Assembly (NCBI RefSeq): GCF_902726655.1
Contig: NZ_CACVAN010000001.1
Coordinates: forward strand, 3,472,001-3,536,000
Length of the DNA stretch: 64,000 bases
Source: Virgibacillus ihumii
GTDB taxonomy: Bacteria > Bacillota > Bacilli > Bacillales > Amphibacillaceae
Reading direction: 5' to 3'
Part shown: piece after piece, positions 18,560 through 49,811 of the stretch
How positions within the stretch are numbered: position 1 is the stretch's first letter
Layout of the letters: each line of letters starts with the position of its first letter
The notes under the pieces: model-generated
Databases searched by the model: none
What the model was told of the DNA's origin: nothing
The model's input: only the letters and a program-made list of their open reading frames with translations
Made by a program: the position numbers and the translations under genes

Positions 18560-18664
18560 CGGGAGAGAATGGTACAAAGTCGGGAGAGAGCATCACAAAC
18601 TCGGGAGAGACTGCCGTGAAGTCGGGAGGGAGCAGCACAAACTCGGGAGACGCCGCCGCCAATT
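18560..18664. repeat. Tandem array, five degenerate 21-bp units, core CGGGAGAGA
   Basis: Five consecutive units of exactly 21 bp start at 18560, 18581, 18602, 18623 and 18644. Each opens with CGGGAG(A/G)(G/C)(A/G), has a variable middle, and most end in ACAAA(G/C)T. Because 21 is a multiple of 3, all frames stay periodic and an open minus-strand frame reads heptapeptides such as SPEFVLL/SPDFVPF. No start site or plausible gene accompanies it. The array lies between zosA (5' side) and the terminator of the MFS gene. The array at 46890 shares the same core. Confidence 0.85.
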
Positions 18665-18697
18665 TCACACTGACAGGGGTTTGAACAACCATACAAT

Positions 18698-18723
18698 AAA
18701 AAAGACACCCGTTATCGAGTGTC
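18698..18723 (-). terminator. Terminator of the YfkF-like MFS gene
   Basis: On the minus strand GACACTCG pairs with CGGGTGTC around ATAA, followed by TTTTTT. The gene's stop codon lies inside the stem. Confidence 0.85.
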
Positions 18724-19888
18724 AACTATGCTGTAATTCAGGAATTTTTTTAAAGTAGGTAGCAATCAGGATCAGTACCAGCACACCTGCAATCATGTAA
18801 AAGAAGGAAACCTCAGGGACAAATTCAATAAACAGTCCTCCTAAATACGGACCGGTAATACTTCCAAGACTGAACGAAATTCCGGTCATCAGGTTCCCGG
18901 CCGGTAACAAATAGGACGGCAGGATGTCTGAAAGGTATGTAATACTTAATGAATACAGTGAGCCGACAAACATGCCCGCCAATGCAAACGAAACAAATAA
19001 GCCGATTACGGATGTCTCCATAAATGCTGCCAGAAGAAAACTGCCGATGCCAAGTGTGAGAACACCAATCAAAATCGTCCTCCTGCCATAACGGTCACTT
19101 AAAACGCCCAATGGGATTTGCGTAATCAGGCTGCCGCCGGCAAAACATGGAATGATCAGGGCCAGAATGTCCACATTATGTCCTATCCGCAAACCATATA
19201 TCGGAAATATCCCATGAAGGGTTGCTTCCAGAAAACCATACCCAAATGCCGGAAGAAGCGCTACCCAAGCGATTTTACCTGTCTGAATGAATCGGCCCAT
19301 GGAAGTGGATGTCCCCGTATTGATTGACTCATCCGCTTCCGGCCATGTATTCCGTACGAAGAACATGGTTGACCAGACAATTAGGCTCAATAATGCTGAC
19401 AGTAAAAAAGGAAGTGCTTCGTTAATCGAAAGCAACTTTGTCATTAAGGGTCCGACCGTAAATCCAAGTCCGAAAAACAAGCCATAAAAGGCAATATTCC
19501 TGCCGCGTATATTTTTGGGACTAGTTGTCGTTATCCATGTTTGCGTACCGAGATGGAGCATATTATCTCCAATTCCTATGGTCACCCGCAGCACGAACCA
19601 GAACCAGAGAGACTGCCAAAAAGGAAATAACGTCAGGGAGATAATTACCAGTGCACCGCCAACAAGAATCACGGGTTTGAATCCGTATTTGCGCATCGGT
19701 TTTTCAATAAAAGGGGAGGCCAACAGTACCCCGATATATAATCCTGTGGCATGGAGTCCGTTGACTGACGATGATACACCGCTTTGCTCCAGAATGATTG
19801 CCAGCAGCGGCAGGAGCATTCCTTGTGAGAATCCCGAAATGGATACGAGCGAAATCAGGATCCAGAATCTGGTTTTTACCGACACCAT
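18722..19888 (-). CDS. MFS transporter, YfkF-like
   Basis: This 388-residue MFS protein has twelve predicted helices. The loop 8-9 motif GVLSDRYGRRTILIG and a GFSQGMLLPLLAIILEQ first helix place it with DHA1-type efflux proteins. The ATG is preceded by AGGGGG at 9 bases. Its place beside yfkH and yfkD homologues suggests the YfkF orthologue, a putative efflux protein of unknown substrate; this is based on recalled gene order. The transcript converges on the zosA side and ends at an overlapping terminator. Confidence 0.75.
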   Translation of the reverse strand: MVSVKTRFWILISLVSISGFSQGMLLPLLAIILEQSGVSSSVNGLHATGLYIGVLLASPFIEKPMRKYGFKPVILVGGALVIISLTLFPFWQSLWFWFVLRVTIGIGDNMLHLGTQTWITTTSPKNIRGRNIAFYGLFFGLGFTVGPLMTKLLSINEALPFLLSALLSLIVWSTMFFVRNTWPEADESINTGTSTSMGRFIQTGKIAWVALLPAFGYGFLEATLHGIFPIYGLRIGHNVDILALIIPCFAGGSLITQIPLGVLSDRYGRRTILIGVLTLGIGSFLLAAFMETSVIGLFVSFALAGMFVGSLYSLSITYLSDILPSYLLPAGNLMTGISFSLGSITGPYLGGLFIEFVPEVSFFYMIAGVLVLILIATYFKKIPELQHS

Positions 19889-20027
19889 ATATTATCCCCC
19901 TAACAATGCAAAAGTGCTCATTCTTTCAATCTAATTGTTTTTTTGTTAAACTTCAATACAATTGTTTACCATGATAGTCATAATGGATATATATGTTCTA
20001 AAAGATCAATGAAAAGGAGCGGGTATA

Positions 20028-20420
20028 ATGGAGTTTTATTTGAAGGACCAGGGCATGCACACAAAGCTGGATTATGGAGAATTGGCGGTATCCGGAAATG
20101 AGGAATATGGATTCAGACCATTCCAGTTGATGGTTGCCTCGATTGCCGGTTGCAGTGGGTCTGTTTTCCGCAAGATTCTTGCTAAACAGCGGACTGATTT
20201 TGAAGATCTTATTATTTCCGCTGAGGTTGAAAGGAATCCGCAAGAAGCGAACAGAATTGAAAAGATTGTCTTGCATTATACCGTAAAAGGCCGTCATTTG
20301 AATTATGACAAACTGGAAAAGAACCTGAAACTTTCACGGCAAAACTGTTCAATGGTTCGTTCTGTGGAAAGTTCCATTGATATCGAGGAGACGATTGAAG
20401 CAATTGAATTAAGCGAGTAA
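20028..20420 (+). CDS. OsmC-family protein
   Basis: This 130-residue protein has the OsmC/Ohr fold signatures: FRPFQLMVASIAGCSGSVFR with the first cysteine and LSRQNCSMVRSV with the second. In the family these two cysteines reduce organic hydroperoxides. It belongs to the general OsmC/YhfA branch rather than the Ohr branch, whose surrounding sequence differs. AAAGGAG precedes the ATG. It could contribute to the oxidative-stress theme of the region, but no PerR or OhrR operator is visible upstream. Confidence 0.83.
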   Translation: MEFYLKDQGMHTKLDYGELAVSGNEEYGFRPFQLMVASIAGCSGSVFRKILAKQRTDFEDLIISAEVERNPQEANRIEKIVLHYTVKGRHLNYDKLEKNLKLSRQNCSMVRSVESSIDIEETIEAIELSE

Positions 20421-20483
20421 ATTTACGGCGTATAAATTTCATGTGTCCGAAAAAACTAAGCCAAAAGGAAAGGAATGGGATAC

Positions 20484-21278
20484 ATGAAAAAAAGTACGTT
20501 TATCACTTTGATTTTATCCGCATTGATATTATCACTTCCTTTTTCTGTCTTCGGTAAAGAAAAGCAGAAGGAAGAAGATGACACGAAGGTTCCAAGCCAT
20601 GTTTTGAACATATCGAAAGAAAATACGTACCCGAACTCAACCGAGGATCAGGAAATAGTGGAGCCAAGCGAGTTTACCAAAGAAATGATAGCAGAAGTCG
20701 ATATACCGATTGAAAATCCCGAATTGATAAAAATGCTTAATGAAACATCGATAAACCCGTCCCCGATTGCATTTGGATACCGCGGGATGGTTTATATCGG
20801 TCGATGGCCGCTGAATTACGATTCACAGGAAACGAACATTAATTGGGAGTATCAAAAAATTAATACAAACGAAATGAACAACAGGGGAGGGGAATCTGAG
20901 CAAAAGCTGCATTATACACAGCATAAGAAAAAGGAAATCACCGGTGCTCTGACAAATAAAATTGCCAACCCTGATGATATTAAGAAAATGATGCTTTTGG
21001 AAGCAAAAGAGAAGATTGAGCTTCCACTAGCATACAGTACTGTAATTGGCAAGGAAACAAAGAAGGATAACTCCTACGTTATCCCGCCTAAAAAGTTTGG
21101 CGTTTTGCAGGCTTATGCTCCAGCTGTTAATGAAAAGGGGCGTGTAACCTTTGGTGAAGTTTACTTTCAGCTGAAAGGTCCAGATAAAGCAATTGTTGTT
21201 AAAAATGTAACCAAGCAGGGAATTGGCGCCTGGATTCCAATTCAGGATTATGTTTCATTTTCTTTTCAGATGAAATAA
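20484..21278 (+). CDS. yfkD: YfkD-like exported protein
   Basis: The N-terminus MKKSTFITLILSALILSLPFSVFG is a signal peptide or anchor; I use the ATG at 20484, although an in-frame ATG at 20475 (three residues longer) is equally possible. The mature part (264 residues in all) contains NISKENTYPNSTEDQ and GYRGMVYIGRWPLNYDS, recalling the YfkD family of Bacillaceae. Function is unknown. Its neighbourhood of yfk-type genes agrees with the assignment. A strong terminator follows. Confidence 0.7.
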   Translation: MKKSTFITLILSALILSLPFSVFGKEKQKEEDDTKVPSHVLNISKENTYPNSTEDQEIVEPSEFTKEMIAEVDIPIENPELIKMLNETSINPSPIAFGYRGMVYIGRWPLNYDSQETNINWEYQKINTNEMNNRGGESEQKLHYTQHKKKEITGALTNKIANPDDIKKMMLLEAKEKIELPLAYSTVIGKETKKDNSYVIPPKKFGVLQAYAPAVNEKGRVTFGEVYFQLKGPDKAIVVKNVTKQGIGAWIPIQDYVSFSFQMK

Positions 21279-21285
21279 TGTTACG

Positions 21286-21316
21286 AAAAACCCGCCCGTT
21301 GCAGGCGGGTTTTTTG
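21286..21316 (+). terminator. Terminator of yfkD
   Basis: AAAAACCCGCC pairs with GGCGGGTTTTTT around a CGTTGCA loop, directly after the yfkD stop. Confidence 0.93.
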
Positions 21317-21374
21317 GACAGTTGAGAAAGAATAAAACCTTTTCTTACTGCATAAATGCTAGGTGACAACCAAA
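21314..21374 (+). repeat. Short dispersed repeat, copy 2
   Basis: Sequence starting TTGGACAGTTGAGAAAG, then TTTTCTTACTGCATAAATG and GGTGACAACCAAA, is a variant of the short repeat at 62139 and 62673. It starts in the T-run of the yfkD terminator. Confidence 0.7.
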
Positions 21375-21484
21375 CCACCATATGAATTGGTTAAAATGAA
21401 ATATGTAAGAAAAGGGTTGATTTCCTCACTTTAATGCTTTATCATAATGAAGTGTTAAAGATAGTTTCGCTAGAGAGGGGAAAA

Positions 21485-22798
21485 ATGATGGAATGGGTTG
21501 TGGTTATTTCTGTTCTGGTAATGACAATACTCAGCTTATTGCGGGTTAATGTGGTGTTGGCAATCATCATCGCGGCAATAACGGCTGGTGTATTATCAGG
21601 GCAGTCGATTATAGAATCAATTGATATGATGATCAGCGGAATGGGAGGACAAGCGGAAACGGCTCTGAGTTATATCCTGCTTGGTGCTTTTGCAGTGGCA
21701 ATCAGTTATACGGGGATTACCGCTATCCTTGTCAATTTTTTAATAAGGGTATTGACAGGAAAGAAAACGATGATGGTTCTCGTTATTGCCGGTGTTGCTT
21801 CACTTTCGCAAAACCTGGTACCAGTTCATATTGCATTTATACCAATATTAATACCGCCATTATTAAAAGTATTTGATGATATGAAATTGGACCGGCGTGC
21901 TGTAGCGTCAGCATTGACCTTCGGGTTAAAAGCGCCATATATTATGATCCCTGCAGGGTTCGGACTGATTTTTCACGGAATTATTGTAAAAGGGATGGAA
22001 CAGAATGGTGTGGAAATTACCATGACGGAAACAGCCCTTTCCATGCTTATCCCGGGATCAGGGATGATTATCGGCTTATTGATTGCGGTATTCATTACCT
22101 ACCGGAAAGATCGTGTAGCAAAACCCGGCGCAGGGGGTGGAGAGGTTAATTTTACAGCCCCCCAACTGGAAAAGGTAACATTTAACCGTAAGCACTTCAT
22201 GACTTTAGTGGCAATTGCCGGAGCCTTAGTCGTTCAGCTTGTTTCACAAAATCTTGTAGCGGGCGCACTAACCGGACTGATATTAATGTTTGCACTTGTC
22301 GCTGTTCCGTTTGGAAATGGCGATCAGATTATGACGGATGGGATTGCCATGATGGGGACAATTGCCTTTGTTATGCTTGTCGCATCCGGTTATGGTCACA
22401 TCCTTACTGAAACCGGGGCAGTGGATGCATTGGTCGAAGCGTCTTCTGGTACTCTGAATAACAATAAAGGATTAATTGCATTGATTCTGCTGCTTGTTGG
22501 TCTAATTGTCACAATAGGGATTGGTTCATCGTTTGGAACAATTCCGATTATCGCATCATTGTTTGTGCCGATTTGTCTTGCCGCAGGTTTTTCGCCAATG
22601 GCAATTGCAACACTGATCGGAACATCAGGTGCGCTGGGTGACGCAGGGTCACCGGCATCAGACAGTACACTCGGACCGACATCAGGCTTAAATGCCGATG
22701 GTAAGCATCACCATATTTGGGATACTTGCGTACCGACTTTTTTACACTATAACATTCCGCTGTTCATCTTAGGATGGATCGGCGCTATGGTATTATAG
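21485..22798 (+). CDS. YuiF-like Na+/H+ antiporter family membrane protein
   Basis: ATG at 21485 follows GAGAGGGG at 5 bases; the frame upstream is open but lacks a site. The 437-residue protein has about eleven helices and resembles the 'Na+/H+ antiporter family' branch (YuiF) of the ion-transporter superfamily. It has SQNLVPVHIAFIPILIPPLL in the middle and TSGALGDAGSPASDSTLGPT near the C-terminus, a conserved polar helix-breaking segment. Family annotation alternates between Na+/H+ antiport and amino-acid transport; the sequence alone does not decide. Next gene downstream is pdaA. Confidence 0.75.
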   Translation: MMEWVVVISVLVMTILSLLRVNVVLAIIIAAITAGVLSGQSIIESIDMMISGMGGQAETALSYILLGAFAVAISYTGITAILVNFLIRVLTGKKTMMVLVIAGVASLSQNLVPVHIAFIPILIPPLLKVFDDMKLDRRAVASALTFGLKAPYIMIPAGFGLIFHGIIVKGMEQNGVEITMTETALSMLIPGSGMIIGLLIAVFITYRKDRVAKPGAGGGEVNFTAPQLEKVTFNRKHFMTLVAIAGALVVQLVSQNLVAGALTGLILMFALVAVPFGNGDQIMTDGIAMMGTIAFVMLVASGYGHILTETGAVDALVEASSGTLNNNKGLIALILLLVGLIVTIGIGSSFGTIPIIASLFVPICLAAGFSPMAIATLIGTSGALGDAGSPASDSTLGPTSGLNADGKHHHIWDTCVPTFLHYNIPLFILGWIGAMVL

Positions 22799-22852
22799 TT
22801 GAATAGCATGTGCAGATTTAGGTAAAAGTAAGGAAAAATGAGGTGAGTTGTC

Positions 22853-23650: not shown

Positions 23651-23656
23651 TGTAAG

Positions 23657-23691
23657 GACTGCTCAACTCAATTGATTTGGGCAGTTTTTTT
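23657..23691 (+). terminator. Terminator of pdaA
   Basis: ACTGCTCAA pairs with TTGGGCAGT (one G-U pair) and runs into TTTTTTT. Confidence 0.85.
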
Positions 23692-23787
23692 GTGATTGGA
23701 TTTCTTATCAAGGCCAGGTCAGTCATCTGACGGGCACCGTTACTGGAAGTATAGAAAAATTACAATAGAGACAATTCCCCTCCACAT

Positions 23788-23813
23788 GTTTTGGAAAATT
23801 TTTTGTTGGGAAA
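23788..23813 (+). promoter_or_regulatory. Candidate SigB promoter of the catalase gene
   Basis: GTTTTG (23788-23793), a 14-base spacer and GGGAAA (23808-23813) approximate the SigB consensus GTTTAA/GGGTAT. It stands about 50 bases before the catalase start. B. subtilis KatE is SigB-dependent, which makes this likely. A PerR box was not found here. Confidence 0.55.
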
Positions 23814-23860
23814 ACGTTTTAATAGAAAACATCCATACAGTGATAACAAGGAGGGGAAGT

Positions 23861-25906: not shown

Positions 25907-25921
25907 AGATGAGGCATGGAC

Positions 25922-27697: not shown

Positions 27698-27698
27698 G

Positions 27699-29018: not shown

Positions 29019-31148
29019 ATGAAATGTCAAAATTGTGGTATTCAACCAGCAACAATAAATGTAGCTATGCAAATAAACAATGAAACGATGCAAATGCATG
29101 TATGTAATAAATGTTTTCGTGAAATTCAAGGTCAGATGATGAATGGCGGAATGAATTCCGGACATGGTCAGCAAGGCGGATTTGCCGATAAATTTTTCCA
29201 AGGTAATGGTCAAAGTTTCACAGGTACGAAAACACAGCAGAATACCGGAAACGGCAATGGGCTGCTTGATGAAATGGGCAAAAATGTAACCCATGCAGCG
29301 CGAGCAGGACTGATTGATCCGGTCATTGGGCGTGACAATGAAGTAAAACGTGTTGTTGAAACATTGAATCGCCGTAATAAGAATAATCCGGTGCTGATTG
29401 GTGAACCTGGTGTTGGTAAAACCGCAATTGCGGAAGGGCTGGCACTAAAGATTACGGAAGGTGATGTTCCGGCTAAATTGATGAATAAGGAAATTTATCT
29501 GCTGGATGTTGCATCACTTGTTGCCAATACAGGTGTCCGCGGTCAATTTGAAGAGCGAATGAAGCAACTTGTACAGGAACTGCAGGAACGCCAGGATGTC
29601 ATCCTGTTTGTCGATGAAATTCATCTCTTAGTTGGAGCAGGTACTGCAGAAGGTTCGCAAATGGATGCCGGGAACATTTTAAAACCTGCACTGGCACGCG
29701 GTGAAATGCAATTGATTGGTGCAACAACACTGAAGGAATATCGTAAAATTGAAAAAGATGCAGCCTTGGAACGCCGTTTTCAGCCAATTATCGTCAAGGA
29801 ACCTTCCGTTGAAGATGCAGTGAAAATTTTGAACGGCATTAAAGATCGCTATGAAAAATTTCATGAGGTTCGTTATTCCGATGAGGCAATCCATGCGTTT
29901 GTTACCTTGTCACAGCGCTATATTCAGGATCGTTTTTTGCCGGATAAAGCAATTGATCTGATGGATGAAGTCGGTTCAAGATTGAATCTTGCTAACGCTG
30001 AGAAGGATTCCAACTCCATTCAGCAAAAAATGGATGAGATCGTGAAGGAAAAAGAACAAGCAGCTGAACAGGAAGATTATGAACGTGCAGCAAATCTGAG
30101 ATATCAGGAAATCCAGCTGCAAAAGCAACTGGACAAAGCAAAAGATGATGAACAAGTCATTGATGTCGATATTTCCGACATTCAGCTGATCGTCGAGGAG
30201 AAAACAGGTATTCCTGTAACAAAACTGGCACGAGATGAACAGGAAAAAATGAGAGATCTTGCTGAAAACCTTGGCACAAAAGTGATTGGACAGGCCGAAG
30301 CGGTTAACAAAGTGGCCAAAGCAGTCCGCCGCAGCCGTGCTGGATTGAAATCGAAATATCGTCCAATTGGTTCATTCTTGTTTATAGGACCAACTGGTGT
30401 CGGAAAAACGGAACTGACGAAAGCCCTCTCTGAGGAATTATTCGGTTCACGTGATAGCCTGCTCCGACTTGATATGAGTGAGTATATGGAAAAACACGCG
30501 GTGTCTAAAATTATCGGTTCACCTCCAGGCTATGTAGGACATGAGGAAGCAGGACAATTAACTGAGCGGGTACGCCGCAATCCTTATTCAATCCTGCTGC
30601 TTGATGAGATTGAAAAGGCACATCCTGACGTGCAAAATATGTTTTTGCAAATCATGGAAGATGGTCAATTGACTGATTCCCATGGTCGTACCGTTAGCTT
30701 TAAAGATACGGTCATTATCATGACAAGTAACGCAGGAACCGGTGTGAAAGAAGTCAATGTCGGGTTCAACAGTGCGGAACATGAATCCGTCTCAACACTT
30801 GAAAACTTGAGTGCATATTTCAAGCCGGAATTCTTGAACCGTTTTGACAGTATCATCACCTTCAACGAACTGTCAGAAGATAACCTGATGGAAATTGTCG
30901 ATTTGATGCTGAATGAACTCGAGGAAACAATTGAAGAAAACAATATCAATATTACCATTTCAGATGAGGCAAAACATGAACTGGTCCGTCTTGGCTACGA
31001 CCGCCGTTTTGGTGCACGACCACTGCGCCGCGTCATCCAGGATAAAATTGAGGATCAGCTCACAGACCTGATTCTGGAAGAGGAAACCGTTGATTCGGTT
31101 CAGGTGAATGTTGACAACGGCGAAATTGTTGTTGCTAAAAGTGAATAA
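29019..31148 (+). CDS. clpE: ATP-dependent unfoldase ClpE
   Basis: This 709-residue AAA+ protein starts with the ClpE-specific zinc finger, CQNCGIQPA...CNKCFRE. NBD1 follows, with GEPGVGKT near residue 130 and Walker [10 protein letters not shown]. Next come a UVR-like coiled segment ([16 protein letters not shown], about 350) and NBD2 with GPTGVGKT (about 450) and the sensor region GARPLRR. There is no ClpC-type N-domain. ClpE works with ClpP to unfold and degrade damaged proteins and helps remove CtsR during heat shock. CtsR boxes ahead of it agree. ctsR itself is not in the window. Confidence 0.95.
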
Positions 31149-31160
31149 CCGTGAGTGGAT

Positions 31161-31194
31161 AAAAGCCGCTGGTGCACTGCACTAGCGGCTTTTT
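31161..31194 (+). terminator. Terminator of clpE
   Basis: AAAAGCCGCT pairs with AGCGGCTTTTT; an inner GTGCA/TGCAC pair extends the stem. Confidence 0.9.
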
Positions 31195-31200
31195 GTTCAA

Positions 31201-31460
31201 CCGCACAAGGGAAACATCAACCGCACAAGGGAAACATCAACCGCACAAGGGAAACATCAACCGCACAAGGGAAACATCAACCGCACAAGGGAAACATCAA
31301 CCGCACAAGGGAAACATCAACCGCACAAGGGAAACATCAACCGCACAAGGGAAACATCAACCGCACAAGGGAAACATCAACCGCACAAGGGAAACATCAA
31401 CCGCACAAGGGAAACATCAACCGCACAAGGGAAACATCAACCGCACAAAGCGTATATCAA
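31201..31460. repeat. Perfect 20-bp tandem repeat, 12 copies plus one degenerate
   Basis: The unit ccgcacaagggaaacatcaa repeats twelve times without a single mismatch (31201-31440), then once with changes (31441-31460). There are no spacers, so it is not a CRISPR array. Units begin a few bases after the clpE terminator. Because 20 is not a multiple of 3, the same peptide-like pattern appears in two open frames; both are repeat artefacts. Perfect identity implies recent expansion or active homogenisation, unlike the diverged 21-bp arrays elsewhere in the window. Confidence 0.95.
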
Positions 31461-37529: not shown

Positions 37530-37616
37530 GCAAATCACTCCTTTTATTGTATTGGTCTATATACGAACCTAACAACAAAAAGGTTCTATTGAAATGTAAA
37601 TAATTCATCAACACAC

Positions 37617-37776
37617 TTGTCCACAGAGAAAAATGCGGTCCATAAGTTATCACCTTATTTGTCCACACAATTCACAGGACAACTCGATTTTATGCACAGG
37701 TAAGCTGTTCATAAGTGGTGTTGCTGTGGAAATATGTTTAGCGGTTATGCACAATCGGTGAATAATTTGTGGATAA
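37617..37776. promoter_or_regulatory. DnaA-box cluster
   Basis: Five DnaA-box sequences lie within 160 bases. Three match TTATNCACA exactly: TTATGCACA at 37690-37698 and 37745-37753, and TTATCCACA on the minus strand at 37768-37776. Two have one change, TTGTCCACA at 37617-37625 and 37659-37667. The region is intergenic, and no dnaA or dnaN gene is in the window. B. subtilis carries several such clusters away from oriC that bind DnaA and restrain initiation; this looks comparable. Confidence 0.75.
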
Positions 37777-37800
37777 ATACTGTTAAAAAATAGTTAAATG

Positions 37801-37906
37801 CAAAAACGCGTATATCATACTCAAAAACGCGAATATATGATGCAGATTCACGAATATCCGGCATCAAATCGCGAATATAAGACGTGAAAACGCGAATATA
37901 TTACAG
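37801..37906. repeat. Tandem array, five degenerate 21-22 bp units, core ACGCGAATAT
   Basis: Units start at 37801, 37822, 37843, 37865 and 37886, each with a (C/G)AAAA-like start and an (A/T)CGCGAATAT-like core (ACGCGTATAT in the first unit), then a variable tail. Period is 21, 21, 22 and 21 bases. It lies immediately after the DnaA-box cluster and before the yfhE terminator. No coding role is evident. Confidence 0.8.
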
Positions 37907-37933
37907 AGCTGATGCATTCTGATGAAATAAACA

Positions 37934-37968
37934 ATAAAAAAAGAAACCGGCCTTAGTGGCGGTTTCTT
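37934..37968 (-). terminator. Terminator overlapping the 3' end of yfhE
   Basis: On the minus strand AAGAAACCG pairs with CGGTTTCTT, followed by TTTTTTATTG. The left arm is inside the last codons of yfhE and the stop codon sits in the loop. Confidence 0.85.
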
Positions 37969-38122: not shown

Positions 38123-39019
38123 TCAATTTATACGCCTTTCCAGCTGCATGAGTGCTGCTTTTAAATCCGGAAATGCGAATTGGAAATTGTACTCAAGTGC
38201 CTTCCCCGGAAGAACATACTGACCTTTGGTTATCAATTGTCCCATTTCGCCCAGTGCAGTGTGGATAAGTGGGGCAGGTGTTGGCACCCAGTATGGACGT
38301 TTCAGAACATCAGCCAATTCTTTTGTGAATTCCTTATTGCGTCTTGGTTCTGGTGCTGTAAAATTTACTGGTCCAGAAATATGATCACTAAACAAGCAAA
38401 ATAGCATAAGCCGGACAACATCTTCTATGTGAATCCAGGATAACCATTGTTCACCATCGCCAATTTTGCCGCCAGCGTACATGTTAACCGGCATGCGCAT
38501 TAATGGGTAAGCGCCTTCTTCACCAAGTATTACGCCGAAACGTGCATAAACGGTGCGAATTCCCATTGTTTCAGCCTGACTTGCGGTTTTCTCCCAATCT
38601 GTTACAACCCCCGCTAGAAAGTCATCGCCAGGCTTAGTTGTTTGCTCGGTAAACATTAAGTCCTCCGACATTCCATAAAAGCCTACAGCTGAACCACTGA
38701 TAAAGATATCCGGTTTTTTCTCCAGCTGGTTCATAAGGCCAATCAGAAATTGTGTTGTTTCCATACGACTTTTATGAATCGCGTCCTTTTTCTTTTTGGA
38801 CCAGTATCCGAATAAGGAATCACCTGCCAGGTTAATGATACCGTGTATTATTGGAAGGTTGCTGATCGGGTGGTCATATGCGATGTACGTCGTACGTTCC
38901 GTATCAAAATGGTAGTCGGGAAAACGTGTCAAAATGTATACATGATGACTTTTTTCGGTTAGAGCACGGGAAAGATTCTGTCCAACAAATCCGGTACCGC
39001 CGGTAATCAGTACATTCAA
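38123..39019 (-). CDS. yfhF: TIGR01777-family NAD(P)-dependent epimerase-like protein
   Basis: TTG start (39019) with GGAG 9 bases upstream. The 298-residue protein has a Rossmann start MNVLITGGTGFVGQNLSRAL, then GIINLAGDSLFGYWSKKKKD and FISGSAVGFYGMSED, where the SAxGxYG motif replaces the usual SDR Tyr-x-x-x-Lys pattern. The C-terminal DUF1731-like end is WVPTPAPLIHTALGEM...GQYVLPGKALEYNF. It belongs to the SDR39U1/YfhF family, whose substrate is unknown (E. coli YfcH relatives). It is divergent from recX, as in B. subtilis. Confidence 0.88.
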   Translation of the reverse strand: MNVLITGGTGFVGQNLSRALTEKSHHVYILTRFPDYHFDTERTTYIAYDHPISNLPIIHGIINLAGDSLFGYWSKKKKDAIHKSRMETTQFLIGLMNQLEKKPDIFISGSAVGFYGMSEDLMFTEQTTKPGDDFLAGVVTDWEKTASQAETMGIRTVYARFGVILGEEGAYPLMRMPVNMYAGGKIGDGEQWLSWIHIEDVVRLMLFCLFSDHISGPVNFTAPEPRRNKEFTKELADVLKRPYWVPTPAPLIHTALGEMGQLITKGQYVLPGKALEYNFQFAFPDLKAALMQLERRIN

Positions 39020-40817: not shown

Positions 40818-43028
40818 TCAGTCCTCATCATCGTCATCTTCATCATCATCATCGTCGTCGCGATCGTCATCGTCTCGTCTGTCGTCATCGCGGTCATCAT
40901 CGTCCCATCTGTCATCGTCGCGATCATCGTCATCCCATCTGTCATCATCGCGGTCGTCATCATCCCATCCATCATCGTCGCGGTCATCGTCATCATCGCG
41001 ATCATCATCTTCTTCACGAAGCTCGTAACTGTAATCAACACTGTTCAATCCGTCATCTGGTGCGCCGTATGTTACCGTCATGATGACTCTTTCATCATCA
41101 TCACTTTCGATTTCTTCTTTAAGTCTAATCATATCTTTATCTGTGAAGTTGAGCGGATCGATTTCTTCCACATCGTATTCCGTTTCACCATCATCTTCCT
41201 CAATTTCAATAATGGAGATGAGGTAGTCAACATAGTTTTTCTGCACTTCATCAAGACTTTGGAAATCATCGGTGCTGCTGCCGTCGTTGCTGTAGTTGAC
41301 TGCATCAATGCTGATGTTGTCGACGTACCAGCCATCCTGTTGTGAAGCCCAGTCAGTTACATATCGGAAGGCAACCAATACTTTTTGCCCTTCATATTTG
41401 CTGAGGTCAAACGTTTGTGATGTCCATCCGTCAGATGTGCCAGTAAAACCGGGAACATTCGATTTGATTTTTGGATGGGCGCTCGGATTGACTTCTTCCG
41501 TCGTATTTCCGTTTGCAAGTGATGTCCATGTTTCACCGCCATCAGTGGAAACTTGTACAAATCCGTAGTCCCAGGTTGATTCGATGTTGTACATCGTGTC
41601 AAAAGTAAGTTTCGGATTTTGTGTGCCCGACAAGTCGAATTCTTTGATCATGAAGTTATCAGTAAGCGAACCGGTTCCGCCCCATAGTATGTTATTTGCG
41701 GAATCATTCGGATCAGATACGGACTTCCATTGCAATGGCAAAAAGTCTATTCCATCAAATAACAGTTCCGCATCATCTTTCTTCGGCATTTCAATGAAAT
41801 CCGTTCCCCAGGCAGGTGCCCCAGCAGATGCGTAAGCTTGTTCTGTACCCGTGTTAACGGTAAAGTCAATGCTTTCAAAGCCGTATTTACCATCGAATTT
41901 ACGTTCTTCGTCCAGGACGAGTGCGGTTTGATAATCACGGTAAATATCATCAAATGTTTTATCATAGCCGAATGTTTGCAGCGAATCATTTACCCCTTTA
42001 ATGCCAGGCTTTTTATTTTTGGCCAGATCCTGTATAAATGATTTGCCGCCAAAGTGATCGTTTAAGTATAACTGAAATAAGTATGCATTACCGTAGTCGG
42101 CCAGGATTTCGCGTGGTCCCTGATCTTCCCAGGCAACAAGCGAGTTTTCCGGCTTTTCAGCAAACGACTGAATATGGCCTTCCGGATGTCCGTAACCAAC
42201 AAGGTATTCGGCAAAGTCTGACATACCTTCGTTGATCCATGTTTCTTCATCCGCATCATTGTCTGCATGAATCAAATGCTGGTATTCATGTGCCACGGTA
42301 CCTTCATACAAATTAGGATTGGCAGCGTCATCCCCGACACGATTAGCCCAATCATATGAATCAACTGTGATAATGTTGCGATCTGTGTATGTTTCAAGTA
42401 CTGGAGAGAAGAATCCTGCCACATAACTTGGGAAATCAGGATTATAGAAGTTTTCATCTTTGATGTTATCAATTAGAATAATGCTGCGGTCGCTGTTATC
42501 CTGACTGACGTAATAATTTTCACCCAAACTGCTCTCCAGCAATGCGTTTTCACCGCTGTGGGAGTCGGGAGTACCGAAAAATTCCGTATCAGTCGGATAA
42601 ATGTTGTTGTCTACCTCAGAAAGCATGTAATCAATTTGCTCCTGGGTAATTTGAATAGAATCGTTCCGGTTTTCCTGTGGGAATTTGCGATCATTTGCCA
42701 CCCAGATTTCCGCATGTTCCCCAACTGCCTTCAGTGTAAAAGGCTTCAGGTAATATTGGTTCTCTGTCTGATCAAGTGCAACCCATAATTTCTCAGTCCC
42801 AGGTACAGGCTCATAAGGTTCAGATTGCACTTCGCTGAAGGTACTGAATGGAATGGTGGATTTGTCAAAATCTGCTTCCTTCACATTCTGCCCCCTCAGT
42901 TCCTTTCCGATATCAACCGGATCAGGCTTTCCTTCACTTGCTGCTTCGGCTGAATTTGTGCCAATTCCAGCGAAACTGACCGGAATGGCCAGTAAAGCAG
43001 CAGCAAGCAGCATACGCCAATTCTTCAT
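40818..43028 (-). CDS. Secreted M6-family metalloprotease with extreme Asp-rich tail
   Basis: This 736-residue protein has a signal peptide (about 1-29, ending AEAA) and a propeptide-like region. The zinc motif is HEYQHLIH (about 248-255), followed by WINEGMSDFAEYLVGYGHPEGH, as in immune inhibitor A (M6) enzymes. From about 440-605 there is a MAM/jelly-roll-like region (WDYGFVQVSTDGGETWTS, DGWYVDNISID). The last 65-70 residues are almost only Asp with regularly placed Arg and Trp, in a ten-residue DDDRWDDDDR pattern encoded by near-identical 30-bp DNA repeats. Extracellular protein degradation is likely; the tail may bind Ca2+ or keep it soluble in salt. Confidence 0.88.
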   Translation of the reverse strand: MKNWRMLLAAALLAIPVSFAGIGTNSAEAASEGKPDPVDIGKELRGQNVKEADFDKSTIPFSTFSEVQSEPYEPVPGTEKLWVALDQTENQYYLKPFTLKAVGEHAEIWVANDRKFPQENRNDSIQITQEQIDYMLSEVDNNIYPTDTEFFGTPDSHSGENALLESSLGENYYVSQDNSDRSIILIDNIKDENFYNPDFPSYVAGFFSPVLETYTDRNIITVDSYDWANRVGDDAANPNLYEGTVAHEYQHLIHADNDADEETWINEGMSDFAEYLVGYGHPEGHIQSFAEKPENSLVAWEDQGPREILADYGNAYLFQLYLNDHFGGKSFIQDLAKNKKPGIKGVNDSLQTFGYDKTFDDIYRDYQTALVLDEERKFDGKYGFESIDFTVNTGTEQAYASAGAPAWGTDFIEMPKKDDAELLFDGIDFLPLQWKSVSDPNDSANNILWGGTGSLTDNFMIKEFDLSGTQNPKLTFDTMYNIESTWDYGFVQVSTDGGETWTSLANGNTTEEVNPSAHPKIKSNVPGFTGTSDGWTSQTFDLSKYEGQKVLVAFRYVTDWASQQDGWYVDNISIDAVNYSNDGSSTDDFQSLDEVQKNYVDYLISIIEIEEDDGETEYDVEEIDPLNFTDKDMIRLKEEIESDDDERVIMTVTYGAPDDGLNSVDYSYELREEDDDRDDDDDRDDDGWDDDDRDDDRWDDDDRDDDRWDDDDRDDDRRDDDDRDDDDDDEDDDDED

Positions 43029-43176: not shown

Positions 43177-43210
43177 AAAAAATCAGCTGACAGTATGCCA
43201 GCTGATTTTT
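43177..43210 (-). terminator. Terminator of the SDR gene
   Basis: On the minus strand, arms AAAATCAGCTG and CAGCTGATTTT with a GCATACTGT loop are followed by a TTTGTTT run. It lies right after the SDR stop. Confidence 0.85.
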
Positions 43211-43869: not shown

Positions 43870-43959
43870 ATTCTTGTCCTCCTAAATAGTGAGTATCATT
43901 ATTTCCATTCTCCTAAACTATTGGTAAAATGTAAACTGATAGAGAAGGGAGTAATTATA

Positions 43960-44295: not shown

Positions 44296-44329
44296 AACAA
44301 CAACCCGAAAACTTTTCGGGCTGTTGTTT
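44295..44329. terminator. Terminator between yfhH and yfhP
   Basis: AAACAACA(A)CCCGAAAA and TTTTCGGG(C)TGTTGTTT form a long stem shared by the converging genes. Confidence 0.88.
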
Positions 44330-45314: not shown

Positions 45315-45407
45315 AGGTCAAGAGCCTCCTCAGAAAAAAATCGACAAAGTTCGCCGTTTGCCGAAAAACTTCCAGTATAATAATTGTATCATAAAGGATG
45401 TTTCAAC

Positions 45408-46481
45408 ATGAACGATAAAGCATTGCAAAATATTGATATTCCGTCATTCCAGCACGATTTAATCAGTTGGTATCAATCGAATAAACGGGATTTGCCATGG
45501 CGTAACGACCAGGATCCCTATAAAATATGGGTTTCTGAGATTATGCTTCAACAAACGAAAGTTGATACCGTTATCCCATATTTTAATCGATTTATTGAGA
45601 AATATCCCACGCCTTCTCATCTGGCAAACGCCGATCAGCAGGATGTACTGAAAACGTGGGAAGGTCTGGGTTACTATTCCCGTGCCAGAAACCTGCAAAA
45701 CGCAGTACGTGAAGTCGTGGAAGAATATAATGGTGAGGTTCCGGCCAATGAAAAGGAACTTGGTGCATTAAAAGGTGTTGGACCTTATACGAAAGGGGCA
45801 ATTCTGTCCATTGCGTTCCAGCAGCCTGTACCGGCGGTTGACGGCAATGTCATGCGTGTGTTGTCTCGTGTTTTGAAAATCGAAGACAATATCGCGCTGC
45901 CCAAAGTTAAAAAACAATTTGAAAAATATGTGCACGAACTGATATCTGCCGAAGATCCATCTTCCTTTAATCAGGGAATTATGGAATTGGGCGCATTGAT
46001 CTGTACACCAAAATCACCGATGTGTATGTTTTGTCCCATCCAGGAGCATTGTCAGGCATACGCGGAAGGAATAGAAGAAGATTTGCCTGTAAAATCAAAA
46101 GCAAAAAAGCAGAAAAAAATCCCATATATTGTGCTTCTGATTCAAAATGAGCAGAATCAATATGTTATTGAAAAGCGTCCGGACAGGGGGTTACTCGCCA
46201 ATCTTTATCAATTCCCGATGGTGCCGGCCACAGAAATAGGCATGGACCATATTGAAAATTGGATGGAGATGGAATACGGGATAACAATCAAGCTGAACGA
46301 AAAAAAGGGAGAACTTAAGCATGTGTTTTCTCATATTATTTGGCAGCTTGAAATTTTCGGGGCAGTCACGGGCAACGTTGTTCCCAGCGATGAACGTATC
46401 CAGTTTGTTGGGAAAAACCACCTGGCTGATTTCCCATTCCCTGTTTCACATCAGAAAATGATGAAATACATACGCGAATAA
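45408..46481 (+). CDS. mutY: A/G-specific adenine DNA glycosylase MutY
   Basis: ATG at 45408 follows AAAGGATG. The 357-residue enzyme has the helix-hairpin-helix segment LKGVGPYTKGAILSIAF, the catalytic Asp in VPAVDGNVMRVLSR, and the 4Fe-4S cysteines in CTPKSPMCMFCPIQEHC (C-x6-C-x2-C-x5-C). A C-terminal NUDT1-like domain (about 225-350) reads 8-oxoG. LPWRNDQDPYKIWVSEIMLQQT is the family start. It removes adenine mispaired with 8-oxoguanine. The place beside yfhP and sspE matches B. subtilis. Confidence 0.95.
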   Translation: MNDKALQNIDIPSFQHDLISWYQSNKRDLPWRNDQDPYKIWVSEIMLQQTKVDTVIPYFNRFIEKYPTPSHLANADQQDVLKTWEGLGYYSRARNLQNAVREVVEEYNGEVPANEKELGALKGVGPYTKGAILSIAFQQPVPAVDGNVMRVLSRVLKIEDNIALPKVKKQFEKYVHELISAEDPSSFNQGIMELGALICTPKSPMCMFCPIQEHCQAYAEGIEEDLPVKSKAKKQKKIPYIVLLIQNEQNQYVIEKRPDRGLLANLYQFPMVPATEIGMDHIENWMEMEYGITIKLNEKKGELKHVFSHIIWQLEIFGAVTGNVVPSDERIQFVGKNHLADFPFPVSHQKMMKYIRE

Positions 46482-46645
46482 GATTATTTTTTGTATTTGC
46501 TTACTGGATTATACGCAAGGTTTTACTGGAGATGTGTATTGCAGTCCTTTACTATTTTTTCCCAAAACAGGTTAAGCTTTACTTCCTTAAAGTGAGGATA
46601 AAAACTCACGCACTGGACAAATTAAGGACTGCGGAGGTGATACTG

Positions 46646-46819
46646 ATGGCTAAACAACCTAAAAAGTCAGCTGCTGGTACAAACGTTCAGCAAGTAAAAA
46701 AACAAAACCAAAAGGCAGCCCAAGGGCAAGGTCAGTACGGTACTGAATTTGCATCTGAACAAACAAATGCACAACAAGTTAAAAAACAGAATCAAAAATC
46801 TCAGCAAAAGAAAAAGTAA
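46646..46819 (+). CDS. sspE: Gamma-type small acid-soluble spore protein
   Basis: ATG at 46646 has GGAGG at 9 bases. The 57-residue protein has two imperfect repeats, VQQVKKQNQKAAQGQGQYG and AQQVKKQNQKSQQ. Between them is the spore protease (GPR) site region TEFASE. It is rich in Gln, Lys and Asn and lacks hydrophobic residues. Gamma SASPs serve as an amino-acid store degraded during germination. It is a single-repeat-pair form, shorter than the 84-residue B. subtilis SspE. A SigG promoter is expected; I could not place one with confidence. Confidence 0.92.
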   Translation: MAKQPKKSAAGTNVQQVKKQNQKAAQGQGQYGTEFASEQTNAQQVKKQNQKSQQKKK

Positions 46820-46848
46820 CTTGCCTATCCCCGATTTTAAACGTTTAG

Positions 46849-46875
46849 AGAGCTCCCGTTCCCAGGGAGCTCTTT
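46849..46875 (+). terminator. Terminator of sspE
   Basis: AGAGCTCCC pairs with GGGAGCTCT around GTTCCCA and is followed by TTTT. Confidence 0.88.
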
Positions 46876-46889
46876 TAATGTGTTTCATG

Positions 46890-46951
46890 AAACGGGAGAG
46901 AGCGCCGTCCAAACGGGAGAGACCACCATGAAATGGGAGACAATGCTGTCC
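46890..46951. repeat. Tandem array, three degenerate 20-21 bp units, core CGGGAGAGA
   Basis: Units start at 46890, 46911 and 46931 with AAA(C/T)GGGAGA and end in CC(G/A)TCC-like sequence. The core is the same as in the five-unit array at 18560, about 28 kb away, so these two are members of one family. It begins 15 bases after the sspE terminator. Confidence 0.75.
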
Positions 46952-47117
46952 AAACGTACGTTCCCAAACCGAAGAGGTGCTCAATTCAGAACAACGTGGT
47001 CACATAGCAACATTTTCCATTTTTTAGATGCATTGAGAAGTATTGCTTTATAAATGGGGCGGTTGCCTATATAATATAAGGACAAACTTTTCGCTAAAAT
47101 ATAGAAAGGACGATAGG

Positions 47118-47645
47118 ATGGTTAGTCCGCAAGCAGGCTCAATCATGCAGATACAAAGTTATAAGCATAATGGGCAATTACATCGGGTGTGGGAAAACAG
47201 CCTTGTATTGAAGGGCACGGAAATGATCGTAATTGGTGCAAACGATAAAACACCGGTTAAGGAAAGCGATGGCAGAACCTGGACAACACGTGAGCCGGCC
47301 ATAAGTTATTTTCACTCCAAGTATTGGTTTAATATAATCGGAATGCTCCGAACCGATGGAATTTATTATTACTGTAATATAAGCTCACCATTTATTTTTG
47401 ATCATGAAGCACTGAAGTACATAGACTACGATTTGGATGTAAAGGTCTATCCTGATATGACTTGGGATTTACTTGATGAAGATGAGTATGAAGAGCATCG
47501 AGCAGTCATGAACTACCCATCAGTATTGGATGGGATTTTATGGAAAAATGTCCGTATATTACTTCACTGGATCAGGCAGGGGAAGGGTCCGTTTGCAGCT
47601 GATTTTATTGATAAATGGTACGAGCGGTATTTAACGTACCGGTAA
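47118..47645 (+). CDS. ygaC: DUF402 nucleoside tri-/diphosphatase, YgaC-like
   Basis: ATG at 47118 follows AAAGGACGATAGG. The 175-residue protein has the DUF402 barrel signatures [40 protein letters not shown] with NISSPF, and [25 protein letters not shown], whose acidic residues bind metal. Characterised staphylococcal and Bacillus relatives hydrolyse nucleoside tri- and diphosphates. It precedes the ABC exporter YgaD as in B. subtilis. Confidence 0.88.
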
Positions 47646-47753
47646 TAAAAGGAAACGTCAGTCTACAGGGTATTTTTAAGATCGACTGATTGTCAAAGAA
47701 AACGGCATTTTTTTCGGAGATTATCACAAGTTATCTACGCATAAATCAATTCG

Positions 47754-47782
47754 TTGATTATGGGTGTTGTTCGATTTATAAT
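47754..47782 (+). promoter_or_regulatory. SigA promoter of the ygaD-like ABC exporter
   Basis: TTGATT (47754-47759), 17 bases, and TATAAT (47777-47782), about 95 bases before the gene start. Confidence 0.7.
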
Positions 47783-47877
47783 GCAATATGTAATTGATAA
47801 AGAGTTCCCTTGTTACAATCGAGTAGCAAGGCTTTTCTTTTTCGTGAAATTCACTACTTTTATAAGGATGCGACGTA

Positions 47878-49644
47878 ATGAGCAGTATTAAGCAATATTT
47901 ATCTTTTGTAAAACCATATAAATGGAAAATTTTCTGGACGGTTCTGATAGGGATTGTTAAATTTTCTATACCTTTGCTAATGCCGCTGATCCTGAAATAT
48001 GTAATTGATGAAATTATCAATGCGGAAAATATGTCGGATGCCGCAAAATTAAATGAATTGTTCTGGCTGATGGGCGGAGCGTTCGTAATATTCCTTGTTT
48101 TGCGGCCGCCGATAGAATATTTTCGACAATACCTGGCGCAGTGGGTAGGGAACACTATCCTTTATGATATAAGGGATAAGCTGTTTGATCACATCCAAAA
48201 ATTGAGTCTGGGATTTTATTCTCAGACAAAAACCGGGGAAATTATTTCCCGGGTAATACATGATGTCGAACAAACAAAGACTTTTGTCTTAACCGGATTA
48301 ATGAACATCTGGCTGGATATGATTACGATTTTAATCGCAATCGTTATTATGCTGACAATGGATCCGTGGCTGACATTGGTGGCCATTATTTTGTTCCCGT
48401 TCTATGGGTTTTCCGTCAAGTTTTTCTATGGAAGGCTGCGGCACCTGACCAGGGAACGTTCCCAGTCATTGGCTGAAGTGCAGGGTCACTTGCATGAACG
48501 GGTGCAGGGCATCCCGGTCACCAGAAGTTTTGCACTGGAAGAATACGAACAGTCGCAATTTGACGTTCGTAACGAAAACTTCCTGCAGAAAGCGCTGAAT
48601 CATACAAATTGGAATGCCAAGACATTCGCGGTCATGAACACTATTACAGACCTTGCCCCATTACTGGTTATCGCTTTTGCAGGTTATCTTGTTATAAGCG
48701 GGGATCTGACAATGGGTACGATGGTTGCGTTTGTCGGCTACATGGAACGCGTGTACAGTCCGTTACGCCGCCTGATCAGCTCGTCTACGGTGCTGACACA
48801 GTCGGTAGCATCGATCGACAGAGTTTTTGAACTTATGAATGAGAAATATGACATTGTCGATAAAGAAGATGCAACGAAACTTGGACGTGTTAACGGGCAA
48901 ATTGATATTGAAAATGTGTCCTTCCAGTACGAAGAAGCGGAACCGTCAGTATTACAAAATGTCAGTCTGAACGTAAAAGAAGGTGAAACGATCGCCTTTG
49001 TTGGTATGAGCGGTGGAGGCAAGTCGACACTGATCAGTCTAATACCAAGGTTTTATGATGTAATGGAAGGTTCCATCAAGGTAGATGGCATGGACATCCG
49101 TGACGTAGAGGCCCGTTCCTTGCGTGATAACATTGGCATGGTTTTGCAGGACAATACATTATTCAGTGAATCCATCTCCATGAACATCCGTATGGGAAAC
49201 CCTGACGCGACTGATGAGGAAGTGGTTGCAGCTGCTAAAGCGGCAAATGCAGATACCTTTATTAACGATCTGCAGCATGGCTATGACACACTGGTTGGTG
49301 AACGTGGTGTCAAACTTTCCGGCGGTCAGAAGCAGCGGATAGCCATCGCCCGTGTATTTTTGAAAAATCCGCCAATCCTGATTTTTGATGAAGCAACATC
49401 AGCACTTGATCTGGAGAGTGAGCACACCATTCAGGAAGCAATGGAAAAACTGGCATCAGACCGGACGACATTTATCGTTGCACACCGGCTGGCAACCATA
49501 ACACATGCCGACCGCATAGTGGTGATAGAAAACGGTGAGATTCAGGAAATCGGCTCACATAAAGAATTGATGGCGCAAAAAGGAAGCTACTATGATTTGT
49601 ACCAGGTTCAGAATTTGGACAACCCGGAACAGATGGAATTATAG
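47878..49644 (+). CDS. ygaD: ABC exporter half-transporter, YgaD-like
   Basis: This 588-residue fused transporter has six membrane helices in a type IV ABC membrane domain (about 1-310). The nucleotide-binding domain holds Walker [10 protein letters not shown] (about 380), signature [16 protein letters not shown], Walker [13 protein letters not shown] and switch IVAHRLAT. As a homodimer or heterodimer it would export lipids, drugs or peptides. Position between ygaC and gsaB homologues supports the YgaD name. Substrate unknown. Confidence 0.9.
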
Positions 49645-49651
49645 ATATGGG

Positions 49652-49685
49652 GAACTCCTCTGCAGCAGTGCAGGGGAGTTCTTTT
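49652..49685 (+). terminator. Terminator of ygaD
   Basis: GAACTCC(T)CTGCA pairs with TGCAG(G)GGAGTTC around GCAG, followed by TTTT. Confidence 0.88.
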
Positions 49686-49706
49686 GAAATACTGATAATA
49701 ATGCAA

Positions 49707-49811
49707 AAGCGGCTGATAAATGTCTGAAACTGACTGATAAACCTCCCAAAGTGACCGATGAATTCAGGGAAGTGACCGATAAAAGTCCTCAACTGACTGA
49801 TAAATCCAGAG
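49707..49811. repeat. Tandem array, five degenerate 21-bp units, core TGACTGATAAA
   Basis: Five units of exactly 21 bp start at 49707, 49728, 49749, 49770 and 49791. Each begins AA(G/C)(T/C)G(A/G)C(T/C)GAT(A/G)AA, followed by a variable 7-base tail. The minus strand reads periodic heptapeptides (FISQLRT, FIGHFPE) in an open frame without a ribosome site. It fills the space between two terminators. Confidence 0.85.

Follow-up and report, generated by a model that had tools for sequence, protein, structure and literature searches.

Intergenic tandem arrays with a 20-21 bp period and diverging sequence in Virgibacillus ihumii and its relatives

Plasmid replication origins contain iterons, direct repeats without a palindrome that are roughly 20 bp long and stand at whole-turn spacing. 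Minisatellites of the VNTR/MIRU type lie between genes, and their unit number varies among relatives. REP/BIME repeats occupy 3' gene ends and convergent gaps in many copies and have a palindromic unit, and the AraC/XylS type of site consists of asymmetric direct half-sites about 21 bp apart, head to tail, two of which stand at a promoter. The bcr1 and stem-loop families of Bacilli are intergenic repeats of Bacillus genomes, and those tabulated for B. anthracis and B. halodurans consist of stem-loop sequences of 72-167 bp (PMC2267715). The TAACTGA direct repeats of Beggiatoaceae, cyanobacteria and Bacteroidetes are based on an abundant intergenic heptamer; per set, they number two to six copies in the main genome and up to 43 elsewhere, and those of the main genome mostly lie just upstream of start codons (PMC4679880).

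Between the genes of salt-loving relatives of Bacillus we found arrays in which a conserved word of 7-10 bases returns at intervals of 20-21 bases and the intervening DNA drifts. As in iteron arrays, the direct repeats fall in the range of about 17-22 bp and are phased by whole turns, but they occur in many chromosomal copies with several core families per genome; in the window (the whole 64-kb stretch of DNA analysed), the best matches of 11 scanned genes included no initiator gene beside the arrays. They share with VNTR minisatellites a whole-unit copy-number difference among relatives, here at the species level. They differ from them in that a unit of about 20-21 bp is kept across unrelated loci and genera, with constraint limited to the core, and in that the diverged units of the window are not near-identical (tail identity 0.39-0.48), although the array at 31197-31448 does qualify. 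The position at 3' gene ends and in convergent gaps and the many copies recall REP/BIME repeats, whereas on average the units of 20-21 bp are not palindromic. A short fixed word in intergenic direct repeats is also seen in the TAACTGA repeats, and asymmetric cores two turns apart, head to tail, resemble AraC/XylS half-sites, except that our arrays stand behind genes and not as site pairs at promoters. CRISPRs have identical repeats of at least 23 bp and unique spacers of similar length, in contrast to the conserved core of 7-11 bp found here. Unlike the tabulated stem-loop families of B. anthracis and B. halodurans, the arrays are phased and unstructured. Among the matches listed, no earlier description of these arrays was found in the open-access literature. 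A nearly fixed tandem-repeat period despite changing sequence, locus and genus is unusual.

Arrays and adjacent hairpins in the window

The window contains four diverged arrays with a 21-bp period and one perfect array with a 20-bp period (Table 1). All five arrays listed in a first-pass annotation were thus recovered, with coordinates offset by at most 12 bp. That annotation had placed them in intergenic gaps, mostly next to a terminator, and this was confirmed: as read, all five are non-genic, and each adjoins a terminator or terminator-like hairpin (three listed by the terminator scan, two recognized by eye). Array 3 sits inside a 417-aa frame with a GTG start at 31155; the metallo-beta-lactamase-domain part of this frame can begin at ATG 31533, past the array. 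Array 5 separates two convergent genes, one for an ABC exporter and one for glutamate-1-semialdehyde aminomutase (hemL/gsaB).

Table 1. Repeat arrays of the window and the hairpins next to them
Feature	Position	Strand	Description
Array 1	18559..18663	+	5 x 21 bp, core TCGGGAGAGA, family II
Terminator-like hairpin of MFS gene 18722-19888 (-)	18704..18723	-	terminator scan; 40 bp from array 1
Hairpin and T run behind Clp ATPase gene (29019-31148), directly before array 3	31163..31195 (about)	+	by eye; absent from scan list
Array 3	31197..31448	+	12.6 copies of a 20-mer, TRF 100% match
Array 2	37806..37910	+	5 x 21 bp, core ACGCGAATAT
Hairpin with T run, 3' side of oxidoreductase gene 38123-39019 (-), near array 2	37938..37967 (about)	-	by eye; absent from scan list
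Terminator-like hairpin preceding array 4	46847..46875	+	terminator scan
Array 4	46893..46953	+	3 units, spacing 21 + 20 bp, core CGGGAGAGA, family II
Array 5	49710..49814	+	5 x 21 bp, core TGACTGATAAA
Terminator-like hairpin, far side of array 5	49825..49841	-	terminator scan

At least four different cores coexist in the window. For the three diverged arrays with five units, mean pairwise identity was 0.88, 0.86 and 0.84 in the core versus 0.48, 0.39 and 0.42 in the tail, a contrast that arises partly by construction, since the core was chosen as the conserved part. The 20-mer of array 3 includes ATCAACCG, which assigns it to family I (GGTTGAT on the minus strand); we read this array as the recent amplification of one unit. 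In array 1, the tail of unit 2 is similar to that of unit 4.

Period, distribution and placement

A self-match scan of 762 gaps from 81 loci (threshold at least 40 of 63) yielded period 21 eight times, period 42 five times, period 20 twice, and periods 12, 22, 39, 40 and 44 once each; none was obtained with three shuffles per gap. Chains of at least four eight-mers (spacing ±1, periods 12-45) were found in 1291 gaps at periods 19-23 and 39-43 only, and with one shuffle per gap at no period from 12 to 45. Likewise, 100 kb each of Bacillus inaquosorum and Priestia abyssalis, taken as controls, contained no chain at any period from 12 to 45. The proposal that period-20/21 arrays exceed chance, which we tested in part and on relatives, was therefore not refuted (shuffled gaps: 0), and arrays do occur in several relatives.

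For a spectrum from 8 to 130 bp we used a set of 105 loci: 80 aminomutase loci (sampled for the gene adjoining array 5), nine stretches of Ornithinibacillus californiensis, five of V. subterraneus, ten control stretches and the window. In the 104 loci, which had not been picked by array hits, and the window, non-coding chains had periods of 20 bp (4), 21 bp (7, three of them in the window), 32 bp (1), 52 bp (9) and 42, 43 and 63 bp (one each). No other period was represented after low-complexity chains, i.e. those whose first word has fewer than three different bases, had been dropped, a step that removed one chain of 22 bp (L059) and one of 23 bp (L012). Outside the window, eight non-coding chains at 20-21 bp were located in 7 of the 104 loci; the perfect array of the window is counted as coding in this spectrum because of the long frame around it, and gap classes rest on plain ORF calls throughout. 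With a period near five helical turns and frequent inverted repeats, the 52-bp arrays seem to form a second class. Adjacent RGTYGAT words were 20 bp apart in 145 cases, 21 bp in 123, 126 bp in 17, 19 bp in three and 22 bp in none; these counts are not used as proof, since most loci were fetched with a pattern demanding 19-21 bp.

It had been suggested that the arrays share a period, not a sequence. The near-constant period of 20-21 bp holds in several relatives, but sequences are shared as well: GGTTGAT arrays and CGGGAGAG arrays recur in several genera, both within and between genomes. The core of array 1 was also found in Oceanobacillus damuensis and Virgibacillus halotolerans. Relatives of array 3 were present in 4 of 20 genomes, and no plasmid relatives of this perfect array were found. 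Of 41 loci scored behind the aminomutase gene, 3 carry a chain of at least three units (one of them just three), and the downstream gene is the same in only one of the three. An order-wide pattern search matched 53 of 299 genomes, with single matches at about the level of the reversed control; according to our reading of the table, 13 genomes had at least three matches, compared to two for the reversed control. One contig of O. californiensis has at least ten GGTTGAT arrays, whereas nine stretches of this species, on contigs not chosen for array hits, showed no 20-bp chain (the scan left out three stretches of fewer than 700 bases with masked letters at the start); array density in this genome is thus uneven. 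In Oceanobacillus salinisoli, six of the eleven fetched arrays belong to a single dispersed repeat that is at least about 250 bp long. V. indicus has four units in one direction facing four in the opposite direction.

We classified the gaps of 60 arrays, after excluding eight loci with all their arrays, as orthologue or dispersed copies, and any array not flanked by genes on both sides. Convergent gaps are overrepresented (23; null 12.0, sd 3.2, P 0.0015) and divergent ones rare (5; null 10.5, P 0.037). The other 32 arrays are in tandem gaps, 24 of them closer to the 3' end of the upstream gene. GGTTGAT in tandem-gap arrays was codirectional with both neighbour genes in 13 cases and opposed in 11.

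Change of core, tail and unit number

Four orthologous arrays (25 units) were compared between the sister species V. litoralis and V. subterraneus. For this single pair, in which the core of one of the two species served to anchor the units, we counted 5 substitutions in 200 core positions, 42 in 302 tail positions and 94 in 1062 flank positions, the flank of one pair taking in some array units outside the chain. Core change is thus about 5-fold below tail and about 3.5-fold below flank (Fisher tests: 6.5e-6 and 1.4e-3, respectively), which suggests constraint on the core. Nor do the tails vary with complete freedom, as they alternate in an A/B fashion along the arrays: tail identity at lag 2 exceeded that at lag 1 by 0.122, versus 0.001 (sd 0.016) with permuted unit order (0 of 500 permutations; 34 arrays). 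Copy-number change, for which the first-pass annotation had suggested a comparison of strains, was seen between the two species as differences by whole units. Based on our reading of the alignments, the four array pairs differ by 2, 0, 4 and 1 units, and at a fifth site about ten units in one species stand against about two decayed ones in its sister.

Possible function and alternative explanations

We propose that the arrays are DNA-level site arrays for a putative helix-phased protein that binds cooperatively, a reading that we give roughly an even chance of being correct. Each unit would provide one non-palindromic recognition core of 7-10 bp, and cores placed every 20-21 bp, i.e. two helical turns, would bring bound monomers onto one face of the helix, in a position for head-to-tail contacts. 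The tail would be a spacer whose length counts more than its sequence. Gain and loss would involve whole units, often two or four at a time, and would leave perfect young arrays, such as array 3, as well as old ones retaining mainly the core. A protein filament behind terminators and in convergent gaps would spare promoters, which may be why arrays are retained there; its most likely job would be that of a roadblock or insulator, or of a nucleoid anchoring site. It speaks against this reading that several cores coexist in one genome, which would call for more than one protein or for a single tolerant one. The slower core change at many non-promoter sites points to a putative DNA-binding protein in a large bacterial family and, if this is true, to bacterial satellite DNA with a function. 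The interpretation offered in the first-pass annotation is in part supported: two-turn helical phasing is the natural reading of the period, while the idea that transcript ends generate the arrays is consistent with their 3'-end position and gained no other support.

The arrays could instead be satellites of mutational origin, with slippage or unequal exchange favouring units of 20-21 bp (and 52 bp) that subsequently decay, without any function. Gain and loss of whole units, perfect arrays next to decayed ones, higher-order blocks of two or four units and the patchy presence of arrays, which we also count against the binding-site reading, are all in line with this. However, slippage and unequal exchange account for unit number and not for the difference between core and tail; decay should strike both equally, yet the core changed more slowly than tail and flank in the species pair, and a single core is found again at many sites in several genera. 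We regard this origin as unlikely, if still plausible. Alternatively, a transposase or some other process acting on single-strand DNA may have dispersed units or whole arrays, similar to REP/BIME elements and their transposases. The dispersed repeat of O. salinisoli, the strand bias in some genomes and unit types common to several arrays of one genome argue for such selfish elements, which we nevertheless consider improbable: units of 20-21 bp have no palindrome or fold on average, no target duplication was evident short of a systematic search, and at one site the sister species retains about two decayed units instead of a clean empty site.

A fork barrier or DNA translocase reading the arrays in one direction would make them polar signals of replication or segregation. 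Family I in O. californiensis (16:2 lagging, one unclear; P 0.0013) and family II over all genomes (12:2 leading, one of the 12 being a doubtful member; P 0.013) are compatible with this idea. On the other hand, family I over all genomes is distributed 37 lagging, 28 leading and three unclear (P 0.32), splits about evenly in V. litoralis (4:5) and V. subterraneus (5:5), and is reversed in O. salinisoli (9:1 leading, with six of eleven arrays in the dispersed repeat), making a polar signal very improbable. A general replication-strand polarity, strong in the first sample, failed overall in the larger one and was left as a genome-specific bias; a plain orientation-free roadblock would not predict such a bias. 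Scarcely to be expected, finally, is an RNA-level element (3' UTR sites for a protein or small RNA) or a cryptic coding repeat of seven residues. It is true that 21 bp equal seven codons, that an open frame runs through some arrays and that the coding class includes three chains from L007, with periods of 21 and 42 bp. But in many arrays the spacing is 20 bp or a mixture of 20 and 21 bp, both orientations relative to neighbour genes occur, and the window arrays come after terminators. Two-unit consensus folding revealed no average structure (mean z -0.22, sd 1.21; 69 arrays), and Rfam gave no match in the window or at the arrays scanned.

Extending the binding-site reading, we tentatively put forward, as possible though rather doubtful, a dedicated and hitherto unnamed architecture system of Bacillales chromosomes: intergenic satellites at two (20-21 bp) or five (52 bp) turns would be bound by putative class-specific oligomerising proteins with fast-changing specificity, which would coat the DNA behind terminators and insulate transcription units. 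Isolated cores were rejected as ordinary regulator sites, since GGTTGAT outside arrays occurs at composition level (44 in 332,936 intergenic bases of five genomes; 42.7 predicted), though twice as often as the reversed word (22); the rarity of the latter suggests that some single GGTTGAT sites may exist. Judged by eye, the cores may have a common skeleton of 3-4 variable bases followed by GA plus purine/AT.

Arrays of the window and families of cores

The window derives from a Virgibacillus/Lentibacillus relative, as its hemL/gsaB aminomutase gives 85-86% matches in V. litoralis, V. subterraneus and L. halodurans. All five arrays of the first-pass annotation were found again, each in an intergenic position. 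Four consist of three to five units spaced at 21 bp (20 bp once), each with a 9-11 bp core that is conserved and a tail that varies; the fifth comprises 12.6 perfect copies of a 20-mer. Three adjoin a terminator listed by the scan, and the other two a hairpin with a T run that was recognised by eye. Their neighbours are unremarkable genes (P-type ATPase, MFS transporter, Clp ATPase, MBL protein, ABC transporters, oxidoreductase, mutY, ntdP and the aminomutase).

The same annotation held that the arrays share a period but not a sequence. This stood for most array pairs inside the window, but not beyond it, where cores recur in other genomes. The paired GGTTGAT word (family I) is present in 16 of 30 genomes, with at least two pairs in ten, for example Ornithinibacillus californiensis (120), V. 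alimentarius (38), V. subterraneus (27), Oceanobacillus salinisoli (21) and V. litoralis (16); its reversed control gave 0-3 pairs. We grouped the perfect array, which includes ATCAACCG, with the GGTTGAT/TATCAACC arrays. CGGGAGAG, the core of two window arrays (family II), is shared by 2 of 20 genomes, those of O. damuensis and V. halotolerans, and the remaining cores were met once or a few times each. In V. indicus, four units of one direction face four of the other. GGTTGAT arrays crowd on some O. californiensis contigs (C14, C20, C30, C35, C41, C57), and O. salinisoli has GGTTGAT units inside a dispersed repeat that measures at least about 250 bp (near position 10000 of L158, L159, L161, L165, L166 and L167).

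Upstream of an ABC transporter gene, adjoining array 2, are several words that we take to be DnaA-box-like, e.g. TTGTGGATAA and TTATGCACA. Elsewhere in the window, a gene whose 736-aa product carries an InhA-like MAM domain has TCA/TCG-rich repeats of 30 bp and 60 bp at its end.

Coordinates of arrays and neighbouring features (L-numbers, comparison loci; the 51-53 bp arrays are examples, others exist)
Feature	Locus	Position
Array, family II	window	18559-18663
Perfect 20-mer array	window	31197-31448
Array 2	window	37806-37910
Array, family II	window	46893-46953
Array	window	49710-49814
DnaA-box-like words	window	37600-37790
TCA/TCG-rich repeats	window	40825-41006
51-53 bp array	L010	6566
51-53 bp array	L028	14702
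51-53 bp array	L070	16283
51-53 bp array	L075	2307
51-53 bp array	L076	1
51-53 bp array	L079	9168
51-53 bp array	L115	3532
51-53 bp array	L169	1621
51-53 bp array	L210	4715
51-53 bp array	L217	4352
Four-unit chain, 31.7 bp spacing	L217	9458-9560

Periods above background and a second class

Two agreeing detectors bear out a 20/21-bp period above the shuffled intergenic background. Self-matching per period (score of at least 40 of 63; 762 gaps from 81 loci) picked out periods of 20 (2 gaps), 21 (8), 22 (1) and 42 bp (5), with 12, 39, 40 and 44 bp once each, and found no match in shuffled gaps. Chains of at least four eight-mers (one mismatch allowed, spacing ±1), searched in 1291 gaps of a set that includes about 800 kb of sequence chosen partly around known array hits, were confined to periods of 19-23 and 39-43 bp, and one shuffle per gap gave no chain. 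Coding chains (16) had periods scattered from 12 to 42.

We also scanned periods 8-130 in a set of 105 loci (1,963,511 bases), none of which, apart from the window, was picked by array hits. Non-coding chains had periods of 20 (4), 21 (7), 32 (1), 42 (1), 43 (1), 52 (9) and 63 bp (1); the window supplies three of the seven 21-bp chains, leaving eight chains of 20-21 bp spread over 7 of the 104 other loci. In these counts the perfect array and three L007 chains of 21 and 42 bp were treated as coding, and a low-complexity rule discarded two chains with AT-only first words (22 bp in L059, 23 bp in L012). Among 103 loci chosen mostly around array hits, the non-coding chains numbered 46 (20 bp), 28 (21 bp), 1 (40 bp), 2 (42 bp) and 9 (51-53 bp), with periods 9, 12 and 58 once each.

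The longer-period scan yielded 18 chains of 51-53 bp, in Ornithinibacillus, Oceanobacillus, Gracilibacillus, Bacillus and others; the window has none. These arrays are intergenic and differ in sequence between sites. Their units often carry inverted repeats and are self-complementary on average (mean folding z -1.6, range +0.6 to -4.1, versus -0.22 in the 20-21 bp class, which as RNA has no structure on average). No Rfam match was found at the arrays of eight loci scanned (six with the 52-bp, two with the 21-bp class). A period of 52 bp corresponds to about five helical turns, and the joint occurrence of peaks at 20-21 and 52 bp is the strongest argument that period rather than sequence is set. 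The 31.7-bp chain, close to three turns, was the sole one of its kind seen. RGTYGAT words stood 126 bp apart 17 times among the fetched loci.

Placement and orientation

After removal of edge arrays and of all arrays in eight orthologue/dispersed-copy loci, 60 arrays remained. Convergent gaps hold 23 of them (null 12.0, sd 3.2), divergent gaps 5 (null 10.5, sd 3.0) and tandem gaps 32. Of the tandem-gap arrays, 24 lie closer to the upstream 3' end, at a median distance of 74.5 bp versus 184.5 bp (Wilcoxon 0.001). The gap 3' of the aminomutase harbours an array in both the window and O. salinisoli, with the same downstream gene and a different core; a chain of at least three units occurs there in 3 of 41 scored loci, and arrays therefore come and go.

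In tandem gaps, 13 arrays had GGTTGAT in the direction of the genes and 11 in the opposite one (orthologues and dispersed copies included). Coupling to replication, suggested by a first sample, was lost overall for family I with more loci (37 lagging, 28 leading, 3 unclear; P 0.32). The strand bias varies from genome to genome (P 0.0016 for heterogeneity). In O. californiensis the ratio is 16:2 lagging, and 16 of the 18 clear cases are oriented against the GC skew; in O. salinisoli, where 6 of 11 arrays sit in one dispersed repeat, it is 1:9 (lagging:leading). Family II had 12 leading and 2 lagging arrays (P 0.013); the 12 include a perfect array in L006 whose membership is doubtful.

Divergence of units and a possible mechanism

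Sequence identity between V. litoralis and V. subterraneus is mostly 90-95% around the arrays. Four orthologous arrays could be aligned; they share tails and differ, as read from the alignments, by 2, 0, 4 and 1 whole units, and at a fifth site about ten units in V. litoralis face about two decayed units in V. subterraneus. Tails alternate in many arrays: among 34 arrays with at least six units, near-identical ones excluded, lag-2 minus lag-1 tail identity was 0.122, versus 0.001 (sd 0.016) with permuted unit order (0 of 500 permutations), and units can be seen to form higher-order blocks of two or four. The main rival reading, that the arrays are functionless satellites, appears rather improbable to us. 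Across 25 units of the four arrays, anchored on the core in one species of this single pair, substitutions amounted to 5/200 in cores, 42/302 in tails and 94/1062 in flanks; such slower core change would be predicted by constraint on the core, not by plain decay.

We give an even chance to the arrays being sites for a DNA-binding protein that would oligomerise along one face of the helix on cores repeated at whole turns, the bound array acting as a roadblock or architectural element; binding, cooperativity and either role are what we infer. This reading is suggested by the non-palindromic, constrained core, the whole-turn repeat, the absence, on average, of RNA structure, a frequency of the core as single site not above composition, the lack of a fixed gene orientation and the placement behind terminators and genes.

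In the open-access literature, mostly judged by titles, we found no description of such arrays. We do not class them as iterons proper, since the neighbouring genes scanned included no initiator gene, and we file the arrays as chromosomal iteron-like direct-repeat arrays. The nearest published relatives found there are the TAACTGA heptamer repeats (PMC4679880) and stem-loop families (PMC2267715).
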